Part shown: one piece after another, positions 42,269 to 53,841 of the stretch
Numbering within the stretch: position 1 is the first letter of the stretch
Layout: each line of letters starts with the position of its first letter
Translations under genes and position numbers: made by a program
The notes under the pieces: model-generated
Databases searched by the model: none
The model's input: the letters and a program-made list of their open reading frames with translations, nothing else
What the model was told of the DNA's origin: nothing
Assembly (NCBI RefSeq): GCF_024158145.1
Contig: NZ_JAMYXM010000003.1
Location: 186,001-250,000 of the forward strand
DNA length: 64,000 nucleotides
Direction of reading: 5' to 3'
DNA from: Notoacmeibacter sp. MSK16QG-6
GTDB lineage: Bacteria; Pseudomonadota; Alphaproteobacteria; Rhizobiales; Rhizobiaceae

Positions 42269-42898
42269 TCAACCCGGCTGGCGGGCAAAGGCGAGCGTCA
42301 CGCCAAAGCCGGCGATAACGACGCCGAACACCCGCTCCATCCAAACGCGAAGCGCCAGGAAGGCACGGCGCACCGAAGGGCGAGCGAAAAAGAGGGAGAC
42401 GACGGTGAACCAGAGGAACGCCGTGATTGCTGTCGTCGCACCGAAAGCCAATTGCAGCCCCAGCGGCGTTTCCGGCGTTGCCACCTGCGTATAGATGGAA
42501 AGGGTAAAGAAGGTCGCCTTTACATTTGTGACATTGGTCAGAAAGCCCCATCGCAGCGCCTTCCATGGCGCCATTGGCTCAAGTCCGGCATCCGCGTCGA
42601 CCAATGTTCCGCGGGCCACGCTTGCGTTACGGATCATGGAAAGGCCGAGAAAGACCAGATATGCCGCGCCGATCCATTTCAGAACATTGAAAAGGACGAT
42701 CGACTGGCTGACGGCGACGCCCACGCCTGCAATGGCGTAGCCGGCATGAATGAGAAGCGCCAGCCCGATCCCTGCTGCCGTCATGATACCGGCGCGACGC
42801 CCGCTCATCAGCGCATTGCGTGAGACGACCGCGAAATCCGGCCCCGGCAATATGGCCGCCAGCAGCGTTAGAAGAAAAACAGTAAGGATGCCGGTCAT
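42269..42898 (-). CDS. LysE family exporter (second copy in the window)
   Basis: 209 residues, six predicted membrane helices, L-P-G-P-D-F-A-V-V near the start and [15 protein letters not shown] in the middle. It sits between pgk and gap. An ATG 10 codons upstream lies in a palindromic repeat, so the internal ATG is preferred. Confidence 0.88.
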
Positions 42899-42923
42899 GA
42901 TGATTCTCGCTGATCGGGGCATC

Positions 42924-43002
42924 GTCATACCGGGACTTGTTCCCGGTATCCAGAAACTTTTCCCCCGACAGGCTGGATTCCGGGGACGAGCCCCGGAATG
43001 AC
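42924..43002. repeat. Palindromic intergenic repeat (REP-like)
   Basis: Two inverted half-elements, GTCATACCGGGACTTGT... and its mirror ...GACGAGCCCCGGAATGAC, each itself a small palindrome, flank a 19-base spacer. This is the arrangement of the dispersed repeats common between genes in many alphaproteobacteria. Only this copy was noticed in the window. Confidence 0.75.
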
Positions 43003-44699: not shown

Positions 44700-46706
44700 C
44701 TACCCGCGATCTAGCGCCGCCAGACGTTTTTCGGCCGCACTGACAATCGCTTCTGCCGTGATACCGAAATGCTCGAACAATTCATCGGCCGGAGCCGAGG
44801 CGCCGAACCCCTTCATACCGACGAACGGATCGTCGCGGTCGAGAAACAGATCCCAGCCTTGTCGAAGCGCCGCTTCGACACCGACGCGGACCTTCGAATT
44901 GCCACGAATGGCGGCCTTATAGGCTTCACTCTGTTGCTCGAAAAGTTCGAAGCAGGGCACGGAAACGACACGCGTCGGGTGGCCCTTGGCTTCAAGAGTT
45001 TCCCGAGCTTCCAGCGCCAGCTCCACTTCGGAGCCCGTGGCGAAGATGGTCACATCCGGCTGGGCGGAAGCGGTTTCCAGCTCATAAGCGCCGTAGCGGC
45101 ACATATTCTCTTCTTCGAATTCGTGACGCACGGTCGGCAGACCCTGCCGCGTCAAGGCCAGCGTCGAAGGGGTATCGCGGCTTTCCAATGCCAGTTGCCA
45201 GCATTCCATCGTTTCGCAGGCATCCGCCGGACGGAAGATGTAGTGGTTCGGAATGGCCCTCAGGGCCGCCAGATGTTCGACTGGCTGATGGGTCGGACCG
45301 TCCTCGCCGAGACCGATGGAATCGTGGGTCATGACATAAATGACGCGCAGGCCCATCAGGGACGACAGGCGCATCGCCGGGCGGCAATAATCGGTAAAGA
45401 CCATGAAGGTCGCGCCATAGGGAATGAGGCCGCCATGAAGGGCGATGCCATTCATGGCGGCGGCCATGCCGTGTTCGCGAATGCCGTAGTAGATATAGCG
45501 GCCGGAGAAGTCCTCCGCCGAAACCGGCTTTGTCTGGCTGGTCTTGGTATTGTTCGAGCCGGTCAGATCGGCGGATCCACCGATGGTCTCCGGCACAGCA
45601 CCGTTGATGACTTCCAGCGCCATCTCGGAAGCCTTGCGTGTCGCGACCTTCGGTTTGTCCTGCGTCAGCGTCTTTTTATAGTCGGCAATCGCCGTCTCCA
45701 GCGCGCCGGGCAGATCGCCTCGCATGGCCCTTTCGAAAGCAGCCTTCAACTCCGGATCGGCATTCTGCAGCCGGTCTTCCCAGGCCGTTCTCGCCTTGGT
45801 GGAACGAAGGCCCGCGAGCCGCCAATCGTCGAGAATTTCGCTCGGTATATCGAAGCTCTCATGCGGCCAGTCCAACGCCTTGCGCGTCGCGGTGATCTCA
45901 TCCGCGCCGAGCGGGCTGCCATGGACCTTATTCGTGCCGACCTTGGTCGGCGCGCCGCGACCGATTTCGGTCTTGCAGGCAATCATGGTCGGCTTGTCGT
46001 TTCCGCGCGCTTTTTCGATGGCTTCGGCGATGGCTTCGGCATCGTGTCCGTCCACTTCCAGCGTCGCCCAGCCGGATGCTTCGAACCGCGCCCGCTGATC
46101 GGTGGAATCGGACAGATCGACCGATCCATCGATGGTGATGCCGTTATTGTCCCAGAAAACGATCAGCTTGTTGAGCTGAAGATGACCGGCAAAGGCGATT
46201 GCTTCCTGGCTGATGCCTTCCATCAGGCAGCCATCGCCGGCAATCGTATAGGTGTAATGGTCGACCAGTTCGTCGCCATAGCGGGCATTCAGAAGCCGTT
46301 CGGCCAGCGCCATGCCGACCGCGTTGGTGATGCCCTGCCCGAGCGGGCCGGTGGTAGTCTCGATCCCGGCGGCGTGGCCGTATTCCGGATGGCCGGCGGT
46401 CTTGCTGCCGAACTGGCGAAAGTTCTTGATCTCGTCCAGCGTGATATCTTCGTAACCGGTCAGGTAGAGCAGCGAATAAAGCAGCATCGAGCCATGGCCA
46501 GCGGACAATACGAAACGGTCTCGGTCGGGCCAGTCCGGGTTTTTCGGATCGTGTTTCAGAAAGCGTGAAAACAGGACGGTCGCAATGTCCGCCGCGCCCA
46601 TCGGTAAACCGGGATGGCCGGAATTGGCCTGTTCTACCGCATCCATGGAAAGGAAGCGGATCGCATTGGCCATCCGTTCGTGTTTTTCCGACTGGGTCAT
46701 GTTCAA
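44700..46706 (-). CDS. tkt: Transketolase
   Basis: 668 residues. Thiamine-diphosphate and sugar motifs are visible: S-G-H-P-G-L-P, S-A-G-H-G-S-M, G-P-L-G-Q-G and G-D-G-C-L-M-E-G for the cofactor, and G-I-R-E-H-G-M in the second domain. It moves two-carbon units between sugar phosphates. Normally grouped with gap and pgk; here followed by the orphan gene and preceded by the ATP-grasp gene on the same strand. Confidence 0.97.
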
Positions 46707-46853
46707 CTTCCATATTTGGGAGCGGCAACTGGTAACAATCTTGCCACTCGGGAAAGGCCGTTATTGAAGGGTGCTCCACATAACAGGTGACTACCGGGAG
46801 TCAATAAAACCCTGCTGTCGGCCGTTCAGGCCGCGTGATCGTGGCGATAAAGG

Positions 46854-47792
46854 TCATCTATTCGCAAGGTCTGTTTCGTCGACTGCCGCTTTGCGCAGAA
46901 CCTTCAATTCGCTGAGAATCGCCCTGTTCAATGCGCCGCCGGATGCTTTGTCGTAAGCGGCGAACATCGGCATGCTGTTGATCTCCAGGAACTCGATCTG
47001 CCCGGTCTGTGGATTGGTCTTCAGGTCGGATGCGGAAAAGGCCAGACCGAATTCATCTGCAACGCGTCGCAATTTGGGAATGATCGTCGGGTCCGGCGGG
47101 CCGTCGGGTACGTGCCGTAAGGTGTAATTCGGCCGCTGACGGTAGTCCAGATCGGTCGATCGGACCTCGAATGTGCAGGATTGCTCGCCGATTACATAGA
47201 TGCGGTATTCCGGATAGACCAGACGCTGTTGAACGATGGCCGGCTGAGGCGCTTTGCCCTTCCGCCACGATGTCGCGGAGGCGGCCTTCTCGCCCTTGAG
47301 GACATAGTCGCCGCCGTTGACGGGCTTTGCGATACCCGCATCGGGCTGAAGCAAAGAACTCAAAGCCTCCGCCTCATTGGAAATGACGGTCCTTGGAATC
47401 GTCAGGCCGTGTTTCTTGGCCAATGTCAGGCCGAGCGGCTTGTTAAGCGCGCAGAGACGGGTCTGACCCTTGGCAAAGCTTCGGATATGCGGGTTGGCGA
47501 TGGTCCAGCCTTCCACCACCGAATAGAAAGCGTGAGACATCTCCAGAAACTCCCGGCTGCGGGAGCGGCCATGCTGGAAATATTCCATGCGGAAAAAGAC
47601 GGCCGACGCATTGACCGTCCGACCGTCTACGACCAGACGCGCCGTTGAGGGGTCGTATGTGACGCCTATGCCAGGCTGGGTGTAATCCAGATAGGCAACG
47701 TCGACGCCAGCCGATCTGGCCTCTTCGTAGAGGCGGATCAGGCTGACATCGTTGCGGCCGCCGGCAATCAGAAGCAAATTACGGTCTTCCAA
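46854..47792 (-). CDS. ATP-grasp peptide ligase, MdnC/MvdD-like (candidate graspetide macrocyclase)
   Basis: 312 residues. The N-terminal part (residues 1-60), the N-K-P-L-G-L-T-L-A-K-K-H-G-L-T-I-P-R-T-V-I-S-N stretch near 117-139, the ATP lysine region D-A-G-I-A-K-P-V-N-G-G, the Q-Q-R-L-x-x-P-E-Y-R-I-Y-V segment and the metal-binding E-F-L-E-I-N-S correspond to the microviridin ligases MdnC and MvdD from memory. Those enzymes form ester or amide rings between Ser/Thr/Lys and Asp/Glu side chains of a precursor. The start is TTG, three bases after the stop of the repeat-protein gene, so the two are surely in one operon. Alternatives are a RimK-like glutamate ligase or another ATP-grasp amide ligase. 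Confidence 0.8.
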   Translation of the reverse strand: MEDRNLLLIAGGRNDVSLIRLYEEARSAGVDVAYLDYTQPGIGVTYDPSTARLVVDGRTVNASAVFFRMEYFQHGRSRSREFLEMSHAFYSVVEGWTIANPHIRSFAKGQTRLCALNKPLGLTLAKKHGLTIPRTVISNEAEALSSLLQPDAGIAKPVNGGDYVLKGEKAASATSWRKGKAPQPAIVQQRLVYPEYRIYVIGEQSCTFEVRSTDLDYRQRPNYTLRHVPDGPPDPTIIPKLRRVADEFGLAFSASDLKTNPQTGQIEFLEINSMPMFAAYDKASGGALNRAILSELKVLRKAAVDETDLANR

Positions 47793-47795
47793 GGC

Positions 47796-48710
47796 TTAGC
47801 GTCTGCCAAACGGCGTTTTTCCCTTTTGGGCCGTCGCGACCCAGTACCAGCGGCCGTTCCGGTAAACCCATCGGCCCTTCGCATTCTGCGGATTGGTCGG
47901 CTCGAACGGCCCCGGATTGAAGGGCCCAGGCCAGGGATAGGGCGGCTGGGGATGCGTTTCCCAATATGTCGTGGTGGGCGGCAGCGGTCCCGGCGGGTTG
48001 TCGGTGATCCAGTGCTTGTCGGTTTCACCCGGAAAAATCGTCGGCAGGTTTTCCCATTGGGTGGGGTCCTGCTCCCTGAATGTCGGCGCTTCCTCACCGA
48101 ATGTCGGCGGATCCTCGAAAAAGGTCGGGCCGTCTTCAGAGGCTGTGGGAATTTCCTCGATGCCGTAGCTCGGCCCTTCCTCGCGAAAGGTCGGCTGATC
48201 TTCTCCAAATGTGGGCGGCTCCTCGCCCTCGTCCAGCGTCGGAAGGTCTTCTTTGGGGTCGGTTGGGTAGTCTTCGCCGAGGGTCGGTGCTTCCTCGCCT
48301 TCCTCGAACGTGATCGGCGGAAGCGTATCAGCATCGCCGGCGCCGCCGGGCTGTGGCATGACCGACATCCGTGCTGAGCGCTGGAGGGGGCGCATTAGGC
48401 GCGTAAGCTCGTTGCTGCGCGAAACAATCCGCACACCGACGAGCTTGCCGTCCGCACCATCCCACTGAAAGGTCGCAGAAACAGGAAATTGCGGGATCAC
48501 CTGTAATGCCGGATCGTCTGGCGGCGTGCCGACAAACTCCAGATCGAGAATGCTGTCCGCACTCAATTCATCTTCGAGCGGCCGTAATTTGATATCGCGC
48601 CAGCCGGAGGTCGCGGGAAACCCGGATGCCTGAATGATCGTGTGGTCGGTCTTTTCGGAAGGCGTCGAGATAGCGACGTCGACGACTTTGTAGATTCGAG
48701 CCTTGGCCAT
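47796..48710 (-). CDS. Candidate multi-core graspetide precursor with Pro-Thr/acidic repeats
   Basis: 304 residues; GGGGAG five bases ahead of ATG. Residues 1 to about 118 look like a folded leader-like domain (M-A-K-A-R-I-Y-K-V-V-D-V-A-I). Residues 131-231 hold about twelve units beginning P-T (once P-S) and containing E or D, for example P-T-F-G-E-D-Q, P-T-F-R-E-E-G, P-T-F-F-E-D-P and P-T-F-G-E-E-A. Thr/Ser positions are 143, 150, 158, 167, 174, 181, 189, 196, 203, 210, 217 and 224, a period of 7 to 9. After that come a Pro-rich stretch and a terminal G-R-W-V-Y-R-N-G-R-W-Y-W-V motif. Paired with the ATP-grasp gene. If not a precursor it would be an unusual acidic, disordered adaptor protein. 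Confidence 0.75.
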   Translation of the reverse strand: MAKARIYKVVDVAISTPSEKTDHTIIQASGFPATSGWRDIKLRPLEDELSADSILDLEFVGTPPDDPALQVIPQFPVSATFQWDGADGKLVGVRIVSRSNELTRLMRPLQRSARMSVMPQPGGAGDADTLPPITFEEGEEAPTLGEDYPTDPKEDLPTLDEGEEPPTFGEDQPTFREEGPSYGIEEIPTASEDGPTFFEDPPTFGEEAPTFREQDPTQWENLPTIFPGETDKHWITDNPPGPLPPTTTYWETHPQPPYPWPGPFNPGPFEPTNPQNAKGRWVYRNGRWYWVATAQKGKTPFGRR

Positions 48711-48754
48711 GAAAACTCCCCTAGCGTCACCCCCGGCAGTCAAACTAACCGAAT

Positions 48755-48770
48755 GGACCGGTCGGTCAAT
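48755..48770. promoter_or_regulatory. Palindrome, possible operator between the graspetide and zapA transcripts
   Basis: The core GACCGGTC is a perfect 8-base palindrome, extended to a GACCGGTCGGTC pattern reminiscent of TetR-type operators. It lies in the divergent region between the two transcription units. No regulator gene is adjacent, so the call is tentative. Confidence 0.3.
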
Positions 48771-48824
48771 GGCCGGCAGCGCCGGCAATGCTGCGATCAC
48801 CGGTGGATGGCGTGGCGTGGCGCG

Positions 48825-52278: not shown

Positions 52279-53841
52279 ATGCAAACGATCGGGATCAGAC
52301 CAGGTATTCCACTCTTGATACGCCGCCCGAATTTCACCACACCCCGCAAGAGCGGGATAACTCGCCTCCGCTCGCTGGGTTTTGCTGCTTTAGCCGGGTT
52401 CGCCCTGTCAGGTTGCGCCGCAGTGACGGACAGTATCGTCGACACGTCCAGCCAGACACGCGGCGAAGCCATCCTGGGCCCGTCCTCCAAGCCCGTTACG
52501 GTCGACAACGTCGCCGGGAACGATCGATTGCGGCGCCTTGCCGCCGAACAGCATCCGAAGATCGTTGCCTCCTATGGCGGCGAGTATAACGACCCGAAAC
52601 TTGAGCGTACCGTTGCCCGGATCGTCGGCGAATTGACCACCGCTGGCGACAACAACACGCAGATCTACAATATTGCGGTTCTGGATTCGCCCTCGATCAA
52701 CGCCTTCGCGCTACCCGGCGGATATCTCTACATCACACGGGGACTGCTGGCCCTTGCCAGCGATTCGGCGGAGCTGGCGACGGTCATCGCCCATGAGATG
52801 GCGCATGTGACGGCCAATCACGGTATCGAACGGCAGAAGATGGAGCGTGCGGAAACAGTTGCGACAAAAGTGGCCGAAGACCTGCTCGGCAGCTCCAACG
52901 CCGCCCGCGCTGCTGCAATCAGGGGCCAGTTACGGCTGGCGCAGTTCTCACGCGGTCAGGAACTGGCGGCCGACGCAATCGGCATCCGCGCCACCGCAGC
53001 CGCAGGTTTCGACCCCTACGCAGCCGTTCGGTTCTTAAGAGCGCTCAGCGCCTATACGCGCTTCCGTTCGGTCACCGGTGCAAAGCCGGAGCTGGATTTT
53101 CTGGCAAGCCACCCGACCAGCGAACGCCGCATGGAGATCGCCCAGCGTCTGGCCCGGCAACAGGGCGGACCTGGTGTCGGCACCCGCGCACGCGACGCCT
53201 ATCTCGCCGGCATCGATGGCATGGTTTATGGCGACACAGCCGCCGAAGGCTTTATTCGCGGGCGCGACTTCCTGCATCCTCGGGTCGGCATCGGCTTCCG
53301 GGTTCCAAAGGACTTTGTGATCGACAATTCGGCAGAGGCGGTGACGGCGGCCGGACCGAACGATATGGCCATCCGGTTCGACGGTGTGCGCGTGGCGCGC
53401 AGTATCCCCCTGACCGATTATCTGGCAAGCGGCTGGATCGGCGGTCTAGACCCCAATTCAGTCGAGGCCGGTAGCGTCAACGGTTTGCCCTATGCGCGCG
53501 CCAAGGCCGCGGCCGATGGCTGGCAGTTTGCCATCTCGGTCTATCGGGTCGGCGACAATGTCTATCGCCTGCTCACCGCTGCGCCTCTTGGCACGGAAGA
53601 ACTTCCATCGCTGGCCGAAGAGACGGCGCGGTCATTCCGCGTTCTGTCTAAATCGGAGCGCGCCGGGCTGAAGCCCTTACGAATCAAGATCGTCACCGCC
53701 GGGTCTGGCGATACCGTGAAAAGCCTTGCCGCTCAGATGGCGCCGATCGAGCGCAAGGAACAACTCTTTCTCGTACTGAACGGACTCGATGCCAGGGATG
53801 CAATCAAAGCCGGGCAGAAATTCAAACTGGTTGTCGAATAA
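52279..53841 (+). CDS. M48 family zinc metalloprotease lipoprotein (BepA-like)
   Basis: 520 residues. A signal peptide ending in the lipobox L-S-G-C directs it to the outer-membrane side of the periplasm. The protease domain has H-E-M-A-H with the third ligand in E-L-A-A-D-A. The C-terminal 60 residues (I-V-T-A-G-S-G-D-T-V-K-S-L-A) look like a LysM-type cell-wall binding module. BepA-type enzymes handle outer-membrane protein assembly defects. Confidence 0.92.
   Translation: MQTIGIRPGIPLLIRRPNFTTPRKSGITRLRSLGFAALAGFALSGCAAVTDSIVDTSSQTRGEAILGPSSKPVTVDNVAGNDRLRRLAAEQHPKIVASYGGEYNDPKLERTVARIVGELTTAGDNNTQIYNIAVLDSPSINAFALPGGYLYITRGLLALASDSAELATVIAHEMAHVTANHGIERQKMERAETVATKVAEDLLGSSNAARAAAIRGQLRLAQFSRGQELAADAIGIRATAAAGFDPYAAVRFLRALSAYTRFRSVTGAKPELDFLASHPTSERRMEIAQRLARQQGGPGVGTRARDAYLAGIDGMVYGDTAAEGFIRGRDFLHPRVGIGFRVPKDFVIDNSAEAVTAAGPNDMAIRFDGVRVARSIPLTDYLASGWIGGLDPNSVEAGSVNGLPYARAKAAADGWQFAISVYRVGDNVYRLLTAAPLGTEELPSLAEETARSFRVLSKSERAGLKPLRIKIVTAGSGDTVKSLAAQMAPIERKEQLFLVLNGLDARDAIKAGQKFKLVVE

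Follow-up and report, generated by a model that had tools for sequence, protein, structure and literature searches.

The locus described here raises the question whether two adjacent genes of Notoacmeibacter sp. MSK16QG-6, one encoding an ATP-grasp ligase and the other a protein with many short acidic repeats, form a graspetide (omega-ester peptide) system, in which the enzyme joins side chains of the neighbouring protein. Both lie within a stretch of 64,000 nucleotides (hereafter the window), and reading of the open reading frames confirmed the pair as originally predicted, at 46854-48710 on the minus strand with a gap of three bases. The elements of the locus are as follows.

46854-47792, minus strand: ATP-grasp ligase of the plesiocin type, 312 aa, TTG start (identified by NCBIfam, PDB, tree, AF2/Foldseek and a group profile)
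47796-48710, minus strand: precursor-like repeat protein, 304 aa (open reading frame with ATG start; homologues adjoin the ligase in L017, L002, L021, L022 and L023)
48716-48722, minus strand: Shine-Dalgarno-like AGGGGAG, read from the sequence, five bases ahead of the precursor ATG
46702-48801, no strand assigned: inserted cassette, delimited by long flank alignments with the same-genus genome G002, which stop at 46701 and restart at 48802

The TTG of the ligase follows the TAA of the precursor after three bases, the two genes share one reading frame, and translation of the ligase is probably coupled to that of its substrate. Flank alignments with a further genome of the genus (G001) likewise stop at 46701 and restart at 48823. 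The cassette is missing from both other genomes of the genus, where tkt is separated by about 0.3 kb from DUF4164-zapA; the ~2.1 kb stretch specific to the window contains no genes besides precursor and ligase, and in G+C content (0.58-0.61) it does not stand out from the window (0.595). The pair is an accessory insertion between tkt and DUF4164-zapA, in agreement with the position between tkt and zapA given in the original prediction. In a Nitratireductor MAG (L017) the corresponding pair occupies another site, with a creatinase/M24-like gene on one side and a ferredoxin-reductase-like gene on the other (judged by eye). No transporter or protease gene adjoins the pair in the window, as had been claimed, but a gene for a LysE-type translocator (42269-42928) and one for an M48 peptidase (52279-53841) are found within about 4 kb of it; any export of the product is a matter of inference.

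The window ligase matched no Pfam family at E<=1. In NCBIfam its best match was TIGR04187 (ATP-grasp ribosomal peptide maturase, 3.6e-15), followed by MvdD (5.8e-8), MvdC (8.8e-8), grasp-with-SPASM and RimK (0.0035), all far below the curated cut-offs. Among PDB sequences it matched 7drm (PsnB) at 2.7e-10 and then 5ig9 (MdnC) at 9e-4; a profile of the ligase group (A6) retrieved PsnB at 6.7e-32 and the next graspetide ligase at 6.2e-16, and its six matches at E<=0.001 are all graspetide ligases. When an AF2 model (mean pLDDT 77.9, alignment of six sequences) was searched with Foldseek, rows 1-13 were all PsnB chains (E 1.9e-19 to 2.9e-17), followed by AMdnB, PruB, MdnC, CdnC and MdnB, and later by ArgX and RimK (RimK from 1.8e-12). 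A tree of 25 sequences, with long outgroup branches and four of the phage relatives from the 20 loci found (see below), places the window ligase with those of L017, L002, L021, L022 and L023 (support 86/92). Together with two ligases of the TTLAVGEE type and the four phage relatives this clade makes up a group of 12 members (99/99), outside of which fall RimK and GshB as well as a separate group (95/94) of TgmB, MvdC/D, the ligases associated with T-K-T...DD repeats, L004, L005, L010 and L011. The enzyme is a graspetide ligase from the peptide-macrocyclase branch of the ATP-grasp enzymes, nearest to PsnB. Its earlier description as MdnC/MvdD-like needs correcting: PsnB is nearer than MdnC or MvdD by PDB, profile and Foldseek comparison. 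A grouping with RimK or glutathione synthase, which would have refuted the prediction, appeared neither in the NCBIfam scans nor in the tree or the fold search, and a function of the RimK/GshB type is rejected on the NCBIfam ranking, the tree and Foldseek.

The presumed substrate can be divided along its length as follows.

48372-48710, minus strand: N-terminal domain of ~110 residues, taken as leader or carrier (conserved in six precursors)
48021-48314, minus strand: core array, residues 133-230 (from shuffle tests; conserved in L017)
47799-48020, minus strand: Pro/Trp-rich C-terminal tail ending in PFGRR (tail common to window and L017)

The core array is made up of three units of the form T-x-x-x-G-E and nine of the form P-T/S-x-x-E, for the most part at intervals of seven residues, and a PFG-x-R motif stands at the C-terminal end, or no more than two residues from it, in all six precursors that carry the N-terminal domain. 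The nine P-T/S-x-x-E units compare with 0.5 expected in the window protein (0 of 10,000 composition-preserving shuffles) and with 0.6 expected for the nine of the L017 protein (again 0 of 10,000), and an origin of the repeats by chance is ruled out by these shuffle tests. The repeat had been regarded as lying outside the known core types. This holds for the unfamiliar P-T-x-x-E heptad, of which a close form is known from two independent sequences only, those of the window and L017 (the G635 pair is identical to the latter). It does not hold for three units with plesiocin-like spacing (TFEEGEE, TLDEGEE and TIFPGET), in which the first Thr of TTxxxxEE is missing.

All eight bacterial members found of the window ligase group, the window included, have an adjacent precursor gene. 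The two frames overlap or nearly touch in the window, L017, L002 and L021, and the pair has more than one genomic location. With this pairing and the grouping of the ligase in its support, the two genes very probably constitute a graspetide system. The precursors of the group differ considerably in size and architecture. Those of L024 and L025 are small (83 and 70 aa as delimited for the analysis), with a short leader and TTLAVGEEDGG-type repeats, the core being preceded by Ser-Gly-Ala in L024 and by Gly-Gly-Gly in L025; an ORF for an ABC-transporter ATPase is located near L025. Precursors of 194-207 aa in L021, L022 and L023 combine the N-terminal domain with one or two cores such as TTLALGEE, the L002 precursor has the domain and six (K/T)T(F/L)xxGEE units, and in L017 and the window the domain is followed by P-T-x-x-E-x-x heptads. 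Core repeats of the form TTxxxxEE are present in L002, L023, L024 and L025. The more general unit TxxxGE[EDQTG] occurs in all 11 partner proteins tested (eight bacterial, three phage). For nine of them no more than 6 of 2000 shuffles equalled the count; the single unit of L022 was equalled in 37 of 2000 and that of L023 in 61 of 2000, which taken alone is not far beyond chance. As background, one other ORF among 55 long window ORFs contains the motif, once. A fragment of the plesiocin precursor in a solved structure reads TTLAIGEE at the aligned place, in a weak alignment (E 0.75, second of three rows).

A scan of the order for the ligase gave matches in 15 of 397 genomes, i.e. the window and 14 weak matches (7.8e-11 or weaker), whose neighbours, except those of L007-L009, were read from plus-strand ORFs only. 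Other graspetide-like pairs of the same order were noted in L003 (1039-2436), L012 (769-2097) and L015 (749-2118), where T-K-T...DD-like repeats adjoin a ligase. In L004 (553-2115), L005 (652-2136), L010 (679-2187) and L006 the ligase adjoins a short protein that begins in a twin-arginine-like manner and ends in DSHPDGFKPGE, possibly a different type of precursor. A gene of 236-239 aa touches or overlaps the 5' side of a ligase-like gene in L013 (452-2070) and L027 (3134-1483), the latter with an additional Lys/Glu-rich ORF of 135 aa. The ligase matches of L014 and L016 have internal stops and look like chance. On plasmids, ligase relatives were found in 5 of 72,556 records (25-30% identical, three annotated as TgmB or MvdC/MvdD-like), and no relatives of the precursor were found in the plasmid records.

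The N-terminal domain of the precursor matched nothing in Pfam, NCBIfam or the PDB sequences (the profile against the PDB at E<=1). Its profile was found in 13 of 394 genomes of the family, six with strong matches (E<=1.6e-48) and seven with weak ones (4.1e-22 to 5.6e-6); the ligase was likewise sought in 394 genomes with the same handles, and the two scans are treated as one sample. The six strong genomes all hold the ligase, domain and ligase thus being found together in 6 of 394, and they are those of the eight ligase genomes that do not have the small type of precursor. Weaker relatives of the domain occur without a ligase: no ligase match at 1e-10 was obtained in the seven weak genomes. 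At the level of the class, the profile matched the window and eight more among 337 genomes, several of these homologues having a signal-peptide- or lipoprotein-like start. No core array was seen by eye behind the domain in the 15 weaker homologues (seven from the family, eight from the class), and no viral copies of the domain were found. Since the AF2 model of the domain is poor (pLDDT 44, built from two sequences), its role as a leader is inferred from co-occurrence.

What these domains are attached to elsewhere was read from a Pfam scan of 15 proteins, comprising 13 of the 15 weaker homologues (without L058 and L065) and two plasmid homologues. Four matched the I78 peptidase inhibitor family in their C-terminal part (L059 4.2e-5, L057 1.5e-4, L069 0.0019, L055 0.029), L059 alone above the Pfam cut-off. 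These proteins resemble the window precursor in the N-terminal domain and carry I78, weakly in three of the four, as their C-terminal part; no ligase match at E<=1e-10 was found in the three family genomes among them, and the class genome of L069 was outside the ligase search. Genes for M4 or S8 peptidases are located near the domain homologue in two of the five plasmid regions opened. On a Mesorhizobium plasmid (L070, 2989-5010) the protein with the domain lies next to an M4 metallopeptidase and to an emfourin gene, annotated as a protealysin inhibitor. Both microviridins and plesiocin inhibit serine proteases (PMC13097080; PMC8939145). An inhibitor role is favoured because of this activity together with the occurrence of the domain with I78, and because of the M4/S8 peptidase genes and the one emfourin gene near the plasmid homologues. 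By this analogy, the most likely role of the window product would be that of a multi-headed protease inhibitor, a role that is inferred and not demonstrated.

Relatives of the ligase are not confined to bacteria. A search of IMG/VR with the ligase profile gave 20 loci, whose relatives show 30-44% identity across the matched stretch. Four of these loci were read completely; their ligase ORF has 257-279 aa and adjoins a DNA polymerase gene. L037 (4878-5657), L042, L030 and L028 are among the IMG/VR loci and represent an uncultured lineage with a stand-alone ligase of the plesiocin type. The phage polymerase is up to 57.6% identical to that of deposited phages, Pelagibacter phages among them. The phage ligase had no match at 1e-5 in 50,697 phage records, and three phage ligases had none in PHROGs. 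The window ligase itself matched one unverified faecal phage scaffold (24.6% identical). In L110 (2230-2340) all that is left of a phage ligase is an in-frame join of the 17 N-terminal and about 9 C-terminal residues, through deletion or as an assembly artefact.

Ligase homologues without a repeat protein had been named as grounds for refutation. Ligases with no adjacent precursor do exist in these phages, but in three contig types (G1104/G1109, G1105 and G1106), which are those with contigs readable far enough, a separate gene elsewhere on the contig has two or three cores, for example ATTQAMGEDGGGG. The phage cores are TTxAxGEDGGG-like and stand in or beside a lytic-transglycosylase protein; core-bearing genes were located at L075 (14266-15915), L078 (9632-11665) and L079 (14350-15039). 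The core protein has a transglycosylase SLT domain in G1104 (3.3e-22) and G1105 (5.1e-23); in G1106 the cores belong to a 229-aa ORF that is related to this region and shows no match to SLT. The SLT part matches PHROGs families of lytic tail proteins, internal virion proteins and endolysins, which suggests that the core protein is perhaps located in the virion.

Eleven of the 13 loci with the lytic-transglycosylase protein have the cores; the two without (L095 and L096) are apparently one virus, of which the ligase slot is visible in G1118 only. There the slot holds no ligase, its place being taken by an ORF of ~140 aa that is unrelated by eye. As G1118 is without both core and ligase and is similar elsewhere to the ligase-bearing G1105 (polymerase 95.6% identical, a 209-aa gene 99.0%), core and ligase have come or gone together at least once, in this single case. 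Among 12 records with the core protein, three have the ligase, G1118 does not (slot read), and eight have no ligase in the record; in the four of these eight that were checked the contig ends before the slot. Of the best 80 polymerase loci, 61 were readable 900 bases past the polymerase gene, and two have a ligase. The only core-protein match in the 80 stretches is in L119, which is ligase-positive and has cores, and polymerase loci without a ligase consequently provide no control.

Taken as a whole, the locus is in our opinion best explained, with good though not full confidence, as an accessory pair of genes for a graspetide of the plesiocin (PsnB) type, whose ligase would form an array of esters on a large protein with a probable inhibitor role. 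The chemistry is inferred. The ligase would recognise the N-terminal domain and use ATP to phosphorylate Glu/Asp side chains, which neighbouring Thr/Ser hydroxyls would attack to give side-chain esters. The ring connectivity is likewise inferred: the three TxxxGE units would carry plesiocin-like esters, the P-T-x-x-E heptads would probably give small Thr(i)-Glu(i+3) ester rings, and up to about a dozen esters or rings might form per precursor molecule. The end product would be a large, multiply cross-linked protein and not a small peptide.

The plesiocin system (PsnA2/PsnB) belongs to omega-ester peptide group 2. The window system shares with it the ligase family and the multiple repeats. As to the core, the solved plesiocin precursor fragment has TTLAIGEE, the close relatives have TTLALGEE or TTLAVGEE, and the window protein has TxxxGE units. 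It differs in its 304-residue substrate, in a domain of ~110 residues that replaces the short leader, in the single-Thr P-T-x-x-E heptads and in the absence of a neighbouring transporter or peptidase. Ester chemistry is established for the microviridin ligases MdnB/MdnC and MvdC/MvdD, which resemble the window enzyme in their ATP-grasp fold and, by inference, in that chemistry; they match it less well than PsnB in sequence and fold, and their core and leader are different. Large repeat graspetides have already been published, namely corallotide and groups 34 and 35 (PMC13097080). In the same source, corallotide is graspetide group 15 and is confined to Corallococcus. It is similar in that its precursor is large (~22 kDa) and repeats a motif of one donor and one acceptor; it differs in its lactams (K-x-x-x-D), on which a partner oxygenase acts by hydroxylation, and in a cluster of precursor, synthetase, oxygenase and a beta-lactamase-like gene. 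Groups 34 and 35 often have long precursors with repeating motifs, and group 35 consists of synthetase and precursor only (PMC13097080); the window system could belong to one of these groups or to neither. PMC8939145 compiles 174 graspetide families, and the window system may already be included in the published lists of groups or families. In the literature searched, we found no paper joining graspetides with alphaproteobacteria or with I78, and a limited check gave no description of a phage-encoded graspetide ligase.

Could the cross-linked product serve instead as a structural or surface protein, such as a stiffened, protease-resistant stalk, without inhibiting any protease? Its size, its abundant repeats and a tail rich in Pro would suit this role, as would the place of the phage cores, within or next to a lytic-transglycosylase protein; the sharing of the N-terminal domain with I78-bearing proteins and the peptidase genes in the two plasmid regions speak against it, and we consider it rather unlikely while keeping it in view.

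A slightly weaker case can be made for esters in the three TxxxGE units alone, formed by the same chemistry, with the heptads as an acidic linker or an eroded, unused array. Plesiocin-like relatives space Thr to Glu at +5/+6 (TTLALGEE), the three TxxxGE units are retained in both the window and the L017 protein, and the heptads have a single Thr per unit as against the double Thr of the plesiocin core, so that they might be linkers, a possibility that counts against an ester array along the whole repeat. Yet +3 is the sole clearly enriched spacing from Thr/Ser to Glu among eight tested, in the window protein (10 observed, 3.2 expected) and in that of L017 (12 observed, 4.6 expected) alike, with 0 of 2000 shuffles in each case, and the heptad register is kept between the two proteins, which are 54% identical. 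We regard the linker reading as unlikely.

That the ligase might be RimK-like, adding amino acids to the acidic tail without cross-linking, draws on the weak detectability of the RimK family and is very improbable, given that graspetide ligases rank higher by many orders and that the tree, its long outgroup branches notwithstanding, separates RimK and GshB. That the two genes merely happen to adjoin, with some other function for the repeats, is barely tenable, for although a direct biochemical link is absent, the pairing is complete in the bacterial loci, recurs at more than one site and involves overlapping or near-touching frames in four of them.

Returning to the plesiocin-type ester array, a broader proposal can be made only tentatively, and with less than even confidence: plesiocin-like ligases may be general protein cross-linkers. 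In the family they would act on arrays borne by a carrier shared with I78 proteins (one carrier, two unrelated inhibitor heads), and in phages a copy would modify lytic-transglycosylase cores of the virion in trans, without an adjacent precursor gene. If true, a structural protein of phages would be a target of graspetide chemistry. The phage relatives offer a direct test of side-chain ester cross-links on phage proteins, for which one natural relative, without both ligase and core, can serve as control. In the bacteria, TTLAVGEE with a short leader, TTLALGEE with the N-terminal domain and the heptads form a series that can be tested stepwise, and the association of the domain with protease inhibition is a hint only. 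With the window system, graspetides would extend from small secreted peptides to a protein of 304 residues, with a leader of domain size and possibly a new ring spacing.
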